A stretch of DNA of 64,000 nt, from positions 1-64,000 of the forward strand of contig NVWL01000003.1 of assembly GCA_002733645.1 (NCBI GenBank). The letters are read 5' to 3'. The notes under the pieces were generated by a model. The model was not told the origin of the DNA. It did no database searches and was given only the letters and a program-made list of their open reading frames with translations. Shown here piece by piece: positions 55,537-61,579 of this stretch (positions are counted from its first letter, which is position 1; each line of letters starts with the position of its first letter). The translations under genes were made by a program, and so were the position numbers. The DNA is from Oceanobacter sp. GTDB lineage: Bacteria > Pseudomonadota > Gammaproteobacteria > Pseudomonadales > Oceanobacteraceae.

Positions 55537-58221
55537 TTATTTTTGCGGCCTTTGCTGAAGCAGCGTTTGAGTCAAAATACGTGGATCAACTGGTTTTGCA
55601 ACATGCGCATTCATACCAGCCTCTAAACACGCTTGAATATCTGATTCCATAGCATTCGCTGTCATACCTATCACCACTAAATCAGGCTTCATCGCCCGAA
55701 TACGGCGTGTTGCCTCGTATCCATCCATCACTGGCATTTGCACATCCATTAGCACCATATCTATCGAAGTATCACTTTGCACCGCGTCAACAGCCACCTC
55801 ACCATTTTCAGCAACGGAGGTCACAACCCCCTGCTTGTGCAATAGCTCTTGCATCAAAATCTGGTTCAGCACGACATCTTCAACAATAAGAATTTTCAGC
55901 CCCTGAAGTGAGTTAGTCATGGGCACGGGAGTATTAGGCTCATCCTGTACTTGTTTGCGAGCATCAAGGGAGAGCCTCAAGAAAACAAAAAACTCGCTGC
56001 CTTCCCCCACCGTACTTCGCACTAGTATGTCGCCACCCATCAACTTAGCAATTCGCTTGGAGATACTTAAACCTAATCCCGTCCCGCCAAAATGACGACT
56101 TGTTGATGCATCAGCCTGCCCAAAGGCTAAAAATATATGCTCTAACTTATCGGGAGGAATCCCGGACCCGCTATCCATAACGCGAATGGTCAATTTGACA
56201 TCGCCGTAACTGAAGGTAAGGCCTACATTCCCAGCCGAGGTAAACTTAAACGCATTACTTAATAGATTCATAACTATTTGCTCTATACGCAAATGATCCC
56301 CAATCAAAAGCATCGGGACATTACGGTGAACATCTATTTTAAAATCCAGCTGTTTGTCATCTGCGATTTGACTAAATAAGGCCTCCATTTTACGAGCTAT
56401 TTTTCGTACATTAACTTCACCCGTTTCTAGCTCCATTTTGCCTGATTCAATTTTTGCGTAGTCCAAGGTTTGATTGATTAATCCTAGTAACGTTTCCGAG
56501 GCGAGGCCGGCCTTCTGTAAAAAATCACGCTGCTGGTTTGTTAATTTAGAATCAAGGGTAAGGTAAATAAATCCACTAATCGCATTTAATGGGGTACGTA
56601 ATTCGTGACTCATATTGGCCAAAAACGTGGACTTTGCAGCACTTGCTGCATTCGCTTTCGAAACCGCATGTTTTAGCTCTCGGGTTCGCGCTTCCACTTG
56701 CCGCGTCACACTCTCAATAGTGCCCGAGGTGGTTAGTGCAAATATCTGAAATAACGCCGCGATAACAAAGCCACCCGTAAGAATGACATAACTTGTCCAA
56801 TCGTCTCCGCCAAATTTGTAATTAGCGCCAGGGGAGATATCTAGACGATATTCACGTCCCGCAAACCTCTCCACGTAAGAGAGCACGGATAGATGAGTGT
56901 AATCCACGCCTTCTTGTTCGAATAAAGGTAATTCAGAATCTGTCACATCATATAAACTAAACTTTAAACCGGCTTCCCTAGCTCGTTCAGCACTATCACC
57001 TAAGATACCCTCAACTCTCAAAACACCACTGGCGTATCCCATTAAAGACTCTGGGTTTTCGCGACCAAATACAGGGGTATATACAATAATGGCTTTTTCC
57101 TCGCCCTCTGTCTGAGCTAAGGTAATTGGCGCGGTAGCCACCCCGCTGTTTTGATTTGCAGCCTCAAGAAGCGCTTCTTTGCGTGTAGGGTTCGCGGCTA
57201 AATTCAAACCAAAAGCTTTGCGATTTTTCTCTAGGGGGTGGATATACAGAACGGGATAATATTCCTTACGCTGCTGTGCTAAAACCACAGAACCATCCGC
57301 AGCAAGCTCGGTTAAGTGAAACTCGGGAAAGCCCTGTTTTTGAAAGTAGGCCTCCCAATCAAGACGACCCTGATGATCTAAAACCTCGGTCCAGCCAACC
57401 GCTTGAAAGGCGTCGTCGTTCTCCATAACCCGCTCAGAAAACCGATTAAACTCATCGAAACTGATAAATTCACTCGCCAAAAATAACGCCGCATACGATG
57501 TTAATTTGTTTTCGGCGATCACCAAGCGAGATTCAACAGTGCGGGCAAGATGATCAGCCTCGGCCTTTAACGCCGCAATGTTTTGCTCCTCACTATGCTC
57601 AACAGACTTAATAAACACCCCATAAACAGCAACAAGGATCAGCAGCATAGGGATGAACGTTTTCAGCTTGCGACTCCGGCTAAAACTGCTTTCAGGCGCT
57701 AAAATAACCTGCACCATCGGCGTGACTAATAACACCCCAATCGAGTCGCCCACCCACCAAGTGATCCAGTTAAATGTAAATCTAGAAACTGGAATGAAAT
57801 CATTCGCCAATAACACAAACGACCCCACCGTCGCCGCGACAATACAGCCAACCAAAACCACAATTGCACAAAATTTTAAAATGAATCGCGGATCGTCCCA
57901 GCGCTGGCTTCCTCGAAGAAAACGCCGATACAGCCAGGCACCAAACCAAGCTTGTGCAGTAGAACCCACGCCAATAGCGAAACCGGTAAGAACCGGCACC
58001 AAGGATAAATCAAAGAAACCACCAGAGGTTCGGTATAGATTGGCAGCAGTGGCACCAATAAGCACCGCAGGTATCGCTACCCGGGCAGGTGTGAACAAAA
58101 ATGCAGACAGCGCAATACCAGCGGCAGGCCATACAGCCGACGCGAAATCAGGAGGAATTGATAGTGCGGCCCCAAGCCTCGCAGCAGCAAAATAGGCCAA
58201 AGCGATGATTAACGCAGACAT
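55537..58221 (-). CDS. Hybrid sensor histidine kinase (MASE1-CHASE-HisKA-HATPase-REC)
   Basis: 894 residues. N-terminal MASE1 membrane domain of about eight helices (1-195), a CHASE-type extracytoplasmic ligand domain (about 225-445, with QAVGWTEV), a further membrane helix near 480, HisKA with His in NMSHELRTPLNA (about 540), HATPase (NLLSNAFKFT, DSGSGIP, GTGLGLSISKRI) and a receiver (LIVEDVVLNQ, phosphoacceptor Asp in VLMDVQMPVMDGYEA, Lys in HVAKPV). No partner regulator is adjacent. Confidence 0.93.
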   Translation of the reverse strand: MSALIIALAYFAAARLGAALSIPPDFASAVWPAAGIALSAFLFTPARVAIPAVLIGATAANLYRTSGGFFDLSLVPVLTGFAIGVGSTAQAWFGAWLYRRFLRGSQRWDDPRFILKFCAIVVLVGCIVAATVGSFVLLANDFIPVSRFTFNWITWWVGDSIGVLLVTPMVQVILAPESSFSRSRKLKTFIPMLLILVAVYGVFIKSVEHSEEQNIAALKAEADHLARTVESRLVIAENKLTSYAALFLASEFISFDEFNRFSERVMENDDAFQAVGWTEVLDHQGRLDWEAYFQKQGFPEFHLTELAADGSVVLAQQRKEYYPVLYIHPLEKNRKAFGLNLAANPTRKEALLEAANQNSGVATAPITLAQTEGEEKAIIVYTPVFGRENPESLMGYASGVLRVEGILGDSAERAREAGLKFSLYDVTDSELPLFEQEGVDYTHLSVLSYVERFAGREYRLDISPGANYKFGGDDWTSYVILTGGFVIAALFQIFALTTSGTIESVTRQVEARTRELKHAVSKANAASAAKSTFLANMSHELRTPLNAISGFIYLTLDSKLTNQQRDFLQKAGLASETLLGLINQTLDYAKIESGKMELETGEVNVRKIARKMEALFSQIADDKQLDFKIDVHRNVPMLLIGDHLRIEQIVMNLLSNAFKFTSAGNVGLTFSYGDVKLTIRVMDSGSGIPPDKLEHIFLAFGQADASTSRHFGGTGLGLSISKRIAKLMGGDILVRSTVGEGSEFFVFLRLSLDARKQVQDEPNTPVPMTNSLQGLKILIVEDVVLNQILMQELLHKQGVVTSVAENGEVAVDAVQSDTSIDMVLMDVQMPVMDGYEATRRIRAMKPDLVVIGMTANAMESDIQACLEAGMNAHVAKPVDPRILTQTLLQQRPQK

Positions 58222-58530: not shown

Positions 58531-59493
58531 GTGGCTGAAAAAGACTACCTTGCCATGTGGTTTAATGTCCGCCGCAAATACGGTATTCAAGATACCATTT
58601 ATTGGGGATGGTACGACCCAAAGGCTCAGAATATAGACTGGAAGACATGGAGACACGCAGATGCTGATGGAATGGCAGGATTTGCAAACATCTTGCGTAA
58701 AGATGGATTCCCTTGCGATCCACTGCCTGTGTGTAACGAAACTTCAGTGCCCGGCTGGAAAGAAATCATCAAGGCACAACGTGACAACCCAATTAAAGAG
58801 TCAGCAAAGACGATTCCATGGCGTGAAACATACATAAACAACGACGAATTCATGCCTGAAGTATCGGTCATAAACAAAGAGCAAACGACTCTTCTATACC
58901 AACAAGCAAAAGCTCGCAAAGTTAGTTCTGGGAATATTATTTTTTCTGCTCTGAGTCGAGTGGTCGCTCGTGAGTTAGTTGAAGGGGATGCACCTTTTTA
59001 CTGGTTTTACCCTGTCAATGTCCGTGGTGCCACAAATATCAAGACAGAGTCTTTCAATCAAGCGTCTGGTTTGTATTTACTCGTTGATAGCCACTCGACA
59101 GCGGAAGATTGGCAAGCACAAATGCGAACTCGTATGAAGGCAAAGCAACACTGGAAGAACTGGAAACTCGCTAATTTAGGCAAGCTAATTGGTGAGCGAG
59201 GCGTCAGTATCGTATATAAATTTACCAGCGGTAAGCAGTTCTATGCAGGTAGCTGCTCAAACTTAGGCACATGGCCACTTATTGATGCACGAAACCCTCC
59301 AATTGAGCATGATCGCCAATTAGTTGCTGTAGCACCAGGTACTGCGAATTACCCGGTATCTAGCTGCATGGTAGATTGGAATGGAAGCATTGCCTTAACA
59401 CTTAAACTGAACCCTTACATCTGCAGAGACCAAACACAGCTCAAGAAACTACTCAAGCAATGGTATGAAGAAATCATTACAGACATTACTTAA
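58531..59493 (+). CDS. Condensation/CAT-fold acyltransferase-like protein, paralogue 1
   Basis: 320 residues, start GTG with AGGAG upstream. The motif RHADADG (residues 41-47; His42, Asp46, Gly47) reads as the HHxxxDG active site of CAT/condensation-type acyltransferases with the first His replaced by Arg. Later blocks fit that fold: KVSSGNIIFSALSRVVAREL, PVNVRG and SNLGTWP (position of the N-x-G region). Only about 40 residues precede the motif, against more than 100 in usual members, so the N-terminal half is shortened. Substrate unknown; a non-catalytic role is possible. Confidence 0.7.
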   Translation: MAEKDYLAMWFNVRRKYGIQDTIYWGWYDPKAQNIDWKTWRHADADGMAGFANILRKDGFPCDPLPVCNETSVPGWKEIIKAQRDNPIKESAKTIPWRETYINNDEFMPEVSVINKEQTTLLYQQAKARKVSSGNIIFSALSRVVARELVEGDAPFYWFYPVNVRGATNIKTESFNQASGLYLLVDSHSTAEDWQAQMRTRMKAKQHWKNWKLANLGKLIGERGVSIVYKFTSGKQFYAGSCSNLGTWPLIDARNPPIEHDRQLVAVAPGTANYPVSSCMVDWNGSIALTLKLNPYICRDQTQLKKLLKQWYEEIITDIT

Positions 59494-59630
59494 GTTAACC
59501 CTGTCTCATTGAGTTGAGGCAGAAGTTTATTTTTTCCTGCCAGTACACTTTTTTAAATAGCAGCTTTACTGAAAGTATTCCCCCTGCATTGCCTTTCGCA
59601 ATCATGGCCAATTTCTTGTAAGGAGCGCAC

Positions 59631-60611
59631 ATGGCAGAAAAAGATTATTTAGCGGTTTGGTTCAATGCTCGACGCCGTTACGGCATCGACGATACTATTT
59701 ATTGGGGTTGGTTCGACCCTCAAACCAAACATACTGATTGGCAGTCATGGCGTCACGCTGATGGAGATGGCCTCTATGGCTTAGCCAATGCGCTTCGTCA
59801 GCAAGGCTACCCCTCCACGCCACTTCCTAACTGTAGCGAGAGTTCCATACCTAGCTGGCGAGAAATCACTAAAGCGCGCAAAGCTCACCCCGTTGACGAG
59901 TCCGAAAAAGCAGTTAATTGGAAGCAAACTTACCCCTATGACGCTGGCCAACAGTTTGAACCAGAGGTCTGTTCGCTGAATAAAGCACAAACAGATGCTT
60001 TAAAAGTCTATGCTTCAGAACATAAAGTCAGTACCGGAAACGTGTTATTCGCGGCATTGAGCAGAGTCGTTGCAAGAAAGCTAATTAGTGGTGATGCTCC
60101 TTTTTACTGGTTTTTTCCAGTCAATGTACGTGGTGCAACAGGTATTAAAACTGAATCATTCAACCAAGTATCCGGCGTCGCCATCCGCGCCAATCCAAGC
60201 TCTACCGCCAATGATTGGCAAACTCAAATGCGCCAACGGTTCAAAGCCAAAGAACATTGGATGATGTGGAAGTTGGCAAATCTTAGTAAATACTTCGGTG
60301 AGCCGGGAGTGGCCTGGTTTTATAAACGCTCCAGCATGAAGCAGTTTTACATGGGAAATTGTTCTAACTTAGGGGTCTGGCCATTGCCCCATGAGAACAA
60401 CCCACCTAAGCCGACCGATGGCCGTTTACTCGCCGGCGCAGCACCCGGCACTGCAAACTACCCGGTATCTAGCAGCATGATTGAGTGGTATGGCGAAATA
60501 GCCCTAACACTCAAGCTTCACCCATATATTTGCCCAAATCAGTCACTTATCCGTGAGTTGGCGGACGCCTGGTTAGTGGAAGTGTTGGCGGACATTCAAC
60601 GGCAAAAATAA
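59631..60611 (+). CDS. Condensation/CAT-fold acyltransferase-like protein, paralogue 2
   Basis: 326 residues, more than half identical to paralogue 1 by eye. It has RHADGDG at 41-47 and the matching blocks KVSTGNVLFAALSRVVARKL, PVNVRGATGIKTESFNQ and SNLGVWP. The ATG follows AAGGAG. The 137 bp gap and own ribosome site point to an old tandem duplication with separate translation. Role unknown; fatty acid, wax or peptide-like acylation are options. Confidence 0.7.
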   Translation: MAEKDYLAVWFNARRRYGIDDTIYWGWFDPQTKHTDWQSWRHADGDGLYGLANALRQQGYPSTPLPNCSESSIPSWREITKARKAHPVDESEKAVNWKQTYPYDAGQQFEPEVCSLNKAQTDALKVYASEHKVSTGNVLFAALSRVVARKLISGDAPFYWFFPVNVRGATGIKTESFNQVSGVAIRANPSSTANDWQTQMRQRFKAKEHWMMWKLANLSKYFGEPGVAWFYKRSSMKQFYMGNCSNLGVWPLPHENNPPKPTDGRLLAGAAPGTANYPVSSSMIEWYGEIALTLKLHPYICPNQSLIRELADAWLVEVLADIQRQK

Positions 60612-60676: not shown

Positions 60677-61579
60677 TTAGCCTTGGTAACGATCCTTCAA
60701 TGCCTGAATGCGCACATCCAACGGCGGATGCGTCGAAAACAGTTGAGAGAATTTCCCTTCTCCACGAATACCAAAGGCCACCAGCTCACCATTTAGCTCA
60801 CTTGGTTGGTCGTAGGTTTCTTTCAAACGCATTAAGGCCGAGGCCATTGCCGCAGGACTAACCAACTCCGCACCCGCTTGGTCCGCACGAAACTCACGAC
60901 GACGACTGAACCAAGCAACAATAGTCGATGCCAAAATGCCTAGAATAATTTCAGAGACTATAGTCGCGATAAAGAAACCAATCCCCGGGCCATTCTCATT
61001 TTTGAAAATCGCTTTATCGACGAAGTTACCGATGATACGTGCAAAAAACATCACAAAAGCGTTCACAACGCCCTGAATCAGCGCCAAGGTGACCATGTCA
61101 CCGTTTGCTACGTGACCGATCTCATGGCCCAACACAGCTTTTACTTCTTCGCGATCCATACGCTGCAACAAACCGGTAGATACCGCCACCAACGCATTAT
61201 TTTTATTCCACCCCGTGGCAAAGGCATTCGGTGCTGACGATGAAAAGATACCGACCTCAGGCATACCAATTCCGGCTTTATCCGAGAGTTCTTTGACGGT
61301 ACTCACGAGCCATTGTTCACCCGAGTTATGCGGGTTATCAATGATCTGCACGCCCATAGAGCGCTTCGCCATCCACTTTGAGATCAGTAGCGAGACAATA
61401 GAGCCAGCCATACCAAAAACCAAACAGAAAACCAGCAGGTTCTGCAAATTCAGACCCGAGCCGTTTTGCTCAAAGTAAGAACCTACGCCCAACAAACTAA
61501 GAGTTATGCTGGCAACAAGAATGACCGCCAAGTTGGTAGCCATAAAAAGGATGATACGAAGCATGGTGTTGCTCTCCAA
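60677..61579 (-). CDS. htpX: Membrane zinc metalloprotease HtpX
   Basis: 300-residue inner-membrane protease that degrades damaged membrane proteins alongside Fts[11 protein letters not shown] zinc motif near residue 145, with a third ligand Glu in [12 protein letters not shown], and four membrane segments. Heat-shock or envelope-stress induced in known species; a sigma-32-like promoter is visible upstream. Confidence 0.96.

Follow-up and report, generated by a model that had tools for sequence, protein, structure and literature searches.

A tandem pair of compact CAT-fold proteins in Oceanobacter sp. that may work with a GH3 ligase cassette encoded elsewhere in the genome

How far can the two-lobe fold of chloramphenicol acetyltransferase (CAT) and condensation domains be shortened, and with which partners would such a protein work? 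The question is raised by two adjacent genes in a 64,000-nucleotide stretch of Oceanobacter sp. DNA (the window: positions 1 to 64,000 of contig NVWL01000003.1, assembly GCA_002733645.1), which is contig C46 of our genome G000, 3.9 Mb in size. Among the products of CAT-fold enzymes are waxes, storage fats, mycobacterial lipids and peptides, and a conserved branch without part of the N-terminal lobe (N-lobe) and without the first His of the HHxxxDG motif would show how little of the fold suffices. We find that the two proteins belong to a real, conserved and unnamed compact branch of this known fold, and that its functional context, a gene cassette found in relatives, is not visible in the window alone. 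The genes, taken from the list of open reading frames (ORFs), and their motifs are these:

58531..59493, + strand, compact CAT-fold protein copy 1, 320 aa, GTG start
58651..58671, + strand, RHADADG of copy 1, residues 41-47, catalytic-type HxxxDG (sequence and alignment)
59011..59028, + strand, PVNVRG block of copy 1, residues 161-166 (Arg kept in 31/31 aligned members)
59257..59277, + strand, SNLGTWP block of copy 1, residues 243-249 (sequence and alignment)
59631..60611, + strand, compact CAT-fold protein copy 2, 326 aa, ATG start, the protein modelled
59751..59771, + strand, RHADGDG of copy 2, residues 41-47 (sequence and alignment)
60117..60134, + strand, PVNVRG block of copy 2, residues 163-168 (sequence and alignment)
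60363..60383, + strand, SNLGVWP block of copy 2, residues 245-251 (sequence and alignment)

The first-pass annotation had described adjacent paralogous genes carrying RHADxDG at residues 41-47, then PVNVRG and SNLGxWP. Coordinates, motifs and their order all hold, and the two copies are 59% identical. Both start codons have a Shine-Dalgarno-like AGGAG immediately 5', as read from the sequence. The short N-terminus is genuine and not a wrong start call, because in-frame stops lie 11 codons (copy 1) and 3 codons (copy 2) upstream of the starts. These stops, together with the short form seen throughout the family, rule out a mis-called start or the remnant of a degraded longer gene.

Is the shortened protein still a CAT-fold protein? 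The AlphaFold model of copy 2 (predicted local distance difference test, pLDDT, 89.4; predicted template-modelling score, pTM, 0.88) has the two-lobe CAT/condensation fold in structure comparisons. The CAT core is present in the model, so the idea of a predicted fold without it falls away. The closest match by structure comparison was AzeD (8s6l), with the wax ester synthase/diacylglycerol acyltransferase WS/DGAT, PapA5 and TRI3 at similar Z (16-19.5); the Foldseek ranking placed PapA5 first (E 8e-9) and AzeD ninth (E 2e-8). The supposed shortening of the N-terminal half is borne out: the N-lobe is about 90 residues shorter, and the motif lies at residue 42 in both window proteins, against residue 131 in the full-length protein of Oleispira cassettes (whose own model, with pLDDT 48.5, served for a rough view of secondary structure only) and beyond residue 100 in nearly all WS/DGAT ORFs listed. 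According to VIA-align, residue 1 of the model may fall near the start of the target structures, and an internal deletion that kept the first helix would fit this placement.

The motifs could be accidental in two proteins, and we therefore looked at their conservation in an alignment of 31 rows, comprising the window pair and 29 relatives with locus sequence. This alignment leaves aside genomes G018 (whose member is present in alignment A2 only) and G691, nine of the 15 compact-positive genomes of family f222, and the partial copy of G007 (L017/L059); the starts of L022b, L023, L024, L061 and L118 were set by hand to the conserved start. The motif His and the Arg of PVNVRG are kept in 31/31 proteins, the motif Asp and Gly in 30/31, and Trp97, Trp160, Arg167, Asn178, Trp210, Gly242, Gly248, Trp250 and Pro278 are invariant. 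The sole protein without the Asp is a copy in genome G006 that has lost four motif residues. Being near-invariant across these family members, the motif pattern is not due to chance. The Arg that had been noted in place of the first His in the window pair is part of a general trait, since this position is His in none of the 31 members (R, S, P, Q, E or A instead). The stop-to-stop frame spans at most 356 aa in 36 of the 43 family matches (one match being a contig-edge fragment), which are therefore too short for a full N-lobe; the other seven have frames of 363-437 aa that do not fix the true start.

The proposal of a distinct branch of the acyltransferase fold also stands. None of 19 family members reaches any Pfam gathering score (Condensation PF00668, WS_DGAT PF03007, PapA_C PF16911), and neither window protein has an NCBIfam match. 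Among the 19, only copy 2 has a match at E<=0.01, with PapA_C (E 4e-4, 20.3 bits, cut-off 30); copy 1 matches PapA_C weakly, below the cut-off (E 0.012). Neither copy 2 nor the family profile matched PDB sequences, and copy 2 matched no phage or plasmid records. A profile comparison aligned residues 131-321 of the window protein with 267-468 of a WS/DGAT from the same order (E 1e-4 for a single comparison, probability 57.5%), pairing PVNVRG with PMNMRT and bringing the SN blocks close. The compact pair thus resembles PapA5 (1q9j), WS/DGAT (6chj) and TRI3 (3fp0) in its two-lobe fold and in having HxxxDG followed by PVNxR- and SN-type blocks in the same order, and differs from them in the missing residues before the motif, the first position that is never His, and the lack of a Pfam gathering score. 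Among open-licence PubMed Central (PMC) papers we found neither a compact CAT branch nor the cassette described.

With what do these proteins work? The pair had been thought to lack partner genes, a view that the gene neighbourhoods of relatives do not support for the family. At loci of Oleispira, Bermanella, Bacterioplanes, Thalassolituus alkanivorans and T. marinus, the compact CAT gene follows genes for a small GNAT-like protein, a GH3 ligase and a double GNAT, and precedes genes for a membrane-fusion protein (MFP) and a resistance-nodulation-division (RND) pump; the cassettes of Oleispira and Bermanella encode an additional full-length HHxxxDG protein. The same order recurs in another family, f222 (L116, L118, L123, L124 and L133; MFP and RND are inverted in L117). 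The double GNAT gene lies directly upstream on the same strand in 17 of the 29 compact-holding loci examined, and 15 of these 17 also have GH3 (L027-L034, L060, L116-L118, L123, L124, L133; not L115 and L134), the other 12 loci being HtpX-linked, Fe2OG-linked, ole-type or other. By coordinates, less than about 3 kb separate GH3 from the compact gene in 14 of the 15 compact-positive f222 genomes (the exception is G513). In G554 one contig has the trio of small GNAT, GH3 and double GNAT genes, and the compact gene lies on another contig together with a second double GNAT gene. The GH3 assignment has a Pfam E of 4e-39 for the L028 protein, and GH3 motif I is recognisable with one regular expression in 15 of 17 GH3-holding loci (no match in L123 and L124). 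The name double GNAT reflects near-threshold Pfam matches, one of them above the cut-off (L074), and the small protein, which has no relevant family match, is called GNAT-like from a reading of its sequence.

The compact gene is present in 18 of the 44 genomes of the family, G004 and G007 having divergent copies only, and in 30 of 390 sampled genomes of the order. Its named holders include Thalassolituus, Oleibacter, Oleispira, Bermanella and Bacterioplanes, which are oil-degraders. It co-occurs with GH3. Among the 44 family genomes, GH3 (>500 bits) occurs in 17, the operon- or solitary-type compact gene in 16, and both in 16, such that no family genome has this type of compact gene without a cassette GH3 (Fisher p 4e-11, inflated by kinship as the genomes are not independent). 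We also searched for GH3 in 21 compact-positive genomes and 21 compact-negative controls outside the family, and found it above 400 bits in 16/21 of the former vs 0/21 of the latter (one control at 170 bits). The five compact-positive genomes without such a match belong to families f14 and f210; three of them have weaker matches of 76-166 bits (G653, G691, G707) and two have none (G545, G615). The compact members of G545, G615, G653 and G707 are divergent and lie in other contexts; in G691 a GNAT-like gene, a double GNAT gene and the compact gene stand together with no GH3 beside them.

The genome of the window pair has a cassette of its own, on contig C78 (G000:C78), with a GH3 copy 57% identical to that of L028 and about 70 bp between the double GNAT and MFP genes, with no compact gene between them. 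The cassettes of G002, G003, G004 and G513 likewise lack the compact gene, and an intact solitary-type compact gene is found elsewhere in G000, G002, G003 and, in the other family, G513. Genome G006 is the mirror image: it has a compact gene inside the cassette and a solitary copy with the motif deleted. Since the cassette of its own genome is without its compact gene, the window pair probably serves the C78 cassette in trans. The claim that no partner genes stand beside the pair is hence correct for the window, where the neighbours are a kinase and a protease, and misleading for the family, given the GH3/GNAT/RND cassette in relatives and elsewhere in the same genome. The window neighbours, context from the ORF list with names from sequence, are:

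55537..58221, - strand, left neighbour, presumably a MASE1-type hybrid histidine kinase
60677..61579, - strand, right neighbour, which we take to be an HtpX-like membrane protease

The same kinase and HtpX genes flank a pair or a single compact gene in L022, L024 and L026; in G006 this site is empty, HtpX and kinase being adjacent with no gene between (L105). Scans gave no more hits than shuffled sequence: no promoters against 4.0, and two terminators against 2.6. In the tree, for which L124 was shortened by 40 residues, a solitary lineage stands apart from the in-cassette genes (support 100/100, 10 rows); copy 2 groups with L022b and L023, and copy 1 lies, less surely (94/86), at the base of the HtpX group. 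We do not favour the idea that the cassette copy just moved to the HtpX site, as the window genes fall in the solitary lineage and both lineages are present in G006. In the reading that fits best, the window genes are a duplicated paralog of the solitary type that has taken the place of the in-cassette gene. Solitary compact genes also occur, in two families, beside a gene that we take from its sequence to be Fe2OG-like (L061:8121-9188 in G006 and L113:10219-11187 in G513); the G006 copy is the one without the four HxxxDG residues, and that of G513 is intact.

What reaction would the pair catalyse? We see about an even chance that the two proteins are stand-alone CAT/condensation-fold acyltransferases, predicted to be catalytically intact, that work in trans with the GH3 cassette. 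In the CAT/condensation superfamily the second His of HHxxxDG is the established base. In the scheme that we infer, the GH3 ligase would use ATP to couple a fatty acid with an amine or amino acid, and the GNATs would then further acylate the product. The compact enzyme, a form lacking the first beta-alpha-beta part of the N-lobe, would use H42 as the base in passing an acyl group from a thioester on to a hydroxyl (or amine) of the intermediate, possibly forming an ester on an N-acyl amino acid, and the MFP-RND pair would export the product. The cassette is an unstudied gene set that looks built for making and exporting an amino-acid lipid. It suggests that marine bacteria make an amino-lipid-like product, as yet uncharacterised and probably exported, whose pathway can be tested gene by gene.

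A described pathway lends this scheme a template. Extracts of PMC12493201 present OlsH, a bacterial GH3-like enzyme that makes N-acyl ornithine, and a separate O-acyltransferase, OlsI, that adds a second fatty acid. Transferred to the cassette, this would make the compact enzyme the acyltransferase of a GH3 pathway, with MFP-RND pumping out the product. The ornithine lipid pathway of planctomycetes (PMC12493201) resembles the cassette in having a GH3-like ligase gene and a separate acyltransferase gene in one cluster, and in its amino-lipid logic, whereas OlsI is an alpha/beta-hydrolase and the acyltransferase-type protein of the cassette is CAT-fold and comes with two GNAT-like proteins and an MFP-RND exporter. 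The GH3-family ligase, a feature of OlsH-type pathways, is present in the own genome and in the cassette. By eye, no OlsI-type alpha/beta-hydrolase acyltransferase was recognised in the cassette ORF lists, and no search aimed at OlsI was made. More tentatively, the cassette could be an additional route to acyloxyacyl-type amino lipids, in which GH3 would make an N-acyl amino acid, the compact CAT protein (not OlsA, OlsF or OlsI) would form the ester, the GNATs would decorate it and MFP-RND would export it, to serve hydrocarbon-degrading marine bacteria as a biosurfactant or signal; the CAT fold would then function with the first beta-alpha-beta unit of its N-lobe missing, a gap perhaps filled by self-association or by the double GNAT.

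Several observations weigh against an acyltransferase of the GH3 pathway. AzeD, which came closest in the model-based structure comparison, bears the title of a dehydratase, and the profile match with WS/DGAT is weak. The compact gene occurs in just one of 369 sampled genomes of the class, that of the window itself, and other Gammaproteobacteria have the small GNAT/GH3/double GNAT trio without it (L074-L078), so the compact enzyme would be an optional step. The double GNAT was found in seven class genomes besides the window's own, and neighbourhoods were obtained for six (G354 left out; L069 covers only 3.3 kb). G004, a genome 80% complete, has a cassette (L108) and only a divergent ole-cluster compact gene was found in it. 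Finally, the family does not fix the substrate, because other members adjoin oleA/oleC/oleD-like genes or stand alone.

Some of these points fit other explanations. The compact enzyme might form amides, as condensation domains do, from an acyl or aminoacyl thioester and an amine, any ester being made by another protein. We hold this to be rather unlikely: amide formation is already accounted for by GH3 and the two GNAT-like proteins, inspection by eye of the cassette ORF lists (ORFs of at least 110 aa) revealed no carrier-protein gene, and WS/DGAT, PapA5 and TRI3, which make esters, match the compact model at the similar Z given above. Alternatively, the protein may no longer transfer acyl groups and may dehydrate, epimerise or hydrolyse an intermediate, as the title of AzeD would suggest. 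AzeD of Pseudomonas aeruginosa is also a stand-alone condensation-fold protein, of 433 residues, and we know of no GH3/RND cassette for it. Yet its identity to the compact protein is 12%, Foldseek ranks the acyltransferase PapA5 ahead of it, and similarity of fold does not set the reaction; we hold a change of chemistry to be quite improbable.

The link between pair and cassette might itself be misleading, if the co-occurrence came from shared ancestry and the pair had a lipid substrate of its own. The separate solitary lineage (100/100, clade of 10), its presence beside an Fe2OG-like gene in G006 and G513, and the inflation of the Fisher p by related genomes all speak for such independence. 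The reciprocal retention seen in two families, with intact solitary genes in G000, G002, G003 and G513 and a lost motif in G006, argues against it and leaves it with a small probability in our view. Least credible of all is a non-catalytic role for the compact proteins, as scaffolds or lipid carriers. The missing first His (31/31) and the reduced N-lobe would suit this role, whereas across several bacterial families the motif His never varies and 30/31 members have the Asp, and the lone motif-less protein, that of G006, has an intact in-cassette paralog. A role in wax or triacylglycerol synthesis was also considered and rejected: WS_DGAT was not found in the nine genus genomes searched and was found in 2/18 relatives.

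Returning to the acyltransferase reading, divergent members of the family bear on its possible substrates. Extracts of PMC7064751 link oleACD clusters without oleB to beta-lactones. Similarly to oleACD, in two families (L058, L119) divergent compact genes have an oleA-like gene on one side and an oleC-like gene on the other, with an oleD-like gene next, which hints at hydroxy-acyl substrates. Unlike these ole-type members, the window pair falls in another branch of the compact family in the tree. In L058 the OleC- and OleD-like proteins do not reach the olefin equivalog cut-offs, and no oleB-like gene was recognised by eye near the ole-type compact genes (L058, L059, L119). The ole-type compact clusters, each with a short-chain dehydrogenase gene after the oleD-like gene, are:

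L058:10164-15401
L059:12-3848, where the contig begins within the compact gene and oleA is out of view
L119:5267-11030

Some loci showed further traits. The trio of L075 is accompanied by a Rieske oxygenase, fatty-acid desaturases and an RnfD/FG-GAP protein, and looks like a different, unstudied biosynthetic cluster. At L134:926-8993, GNAT-like, double GNAT and compact genes without GH3 lie near a set that by eye resembles an aryl-polyene-type fatty acid synthase. In the RND pumps of some cassettes, the C-terminal ~50 residues match ribosome modulation factor (RMF, PF04957; gathering score 27.9), with 31.8 bits in L028 and 31.6-43.5 bits in the 4/4 tails tested; by eye, this tail is missing from the pumps of L030-L033. 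The fusion of an RND transporter to a ribosome-hibernation domain is unexpected. The pumps with the RMF tail are:

L028:10185-13496
L027:7851-11132
L029:6951-10241
L060:12069-15332
L063:11784-15047
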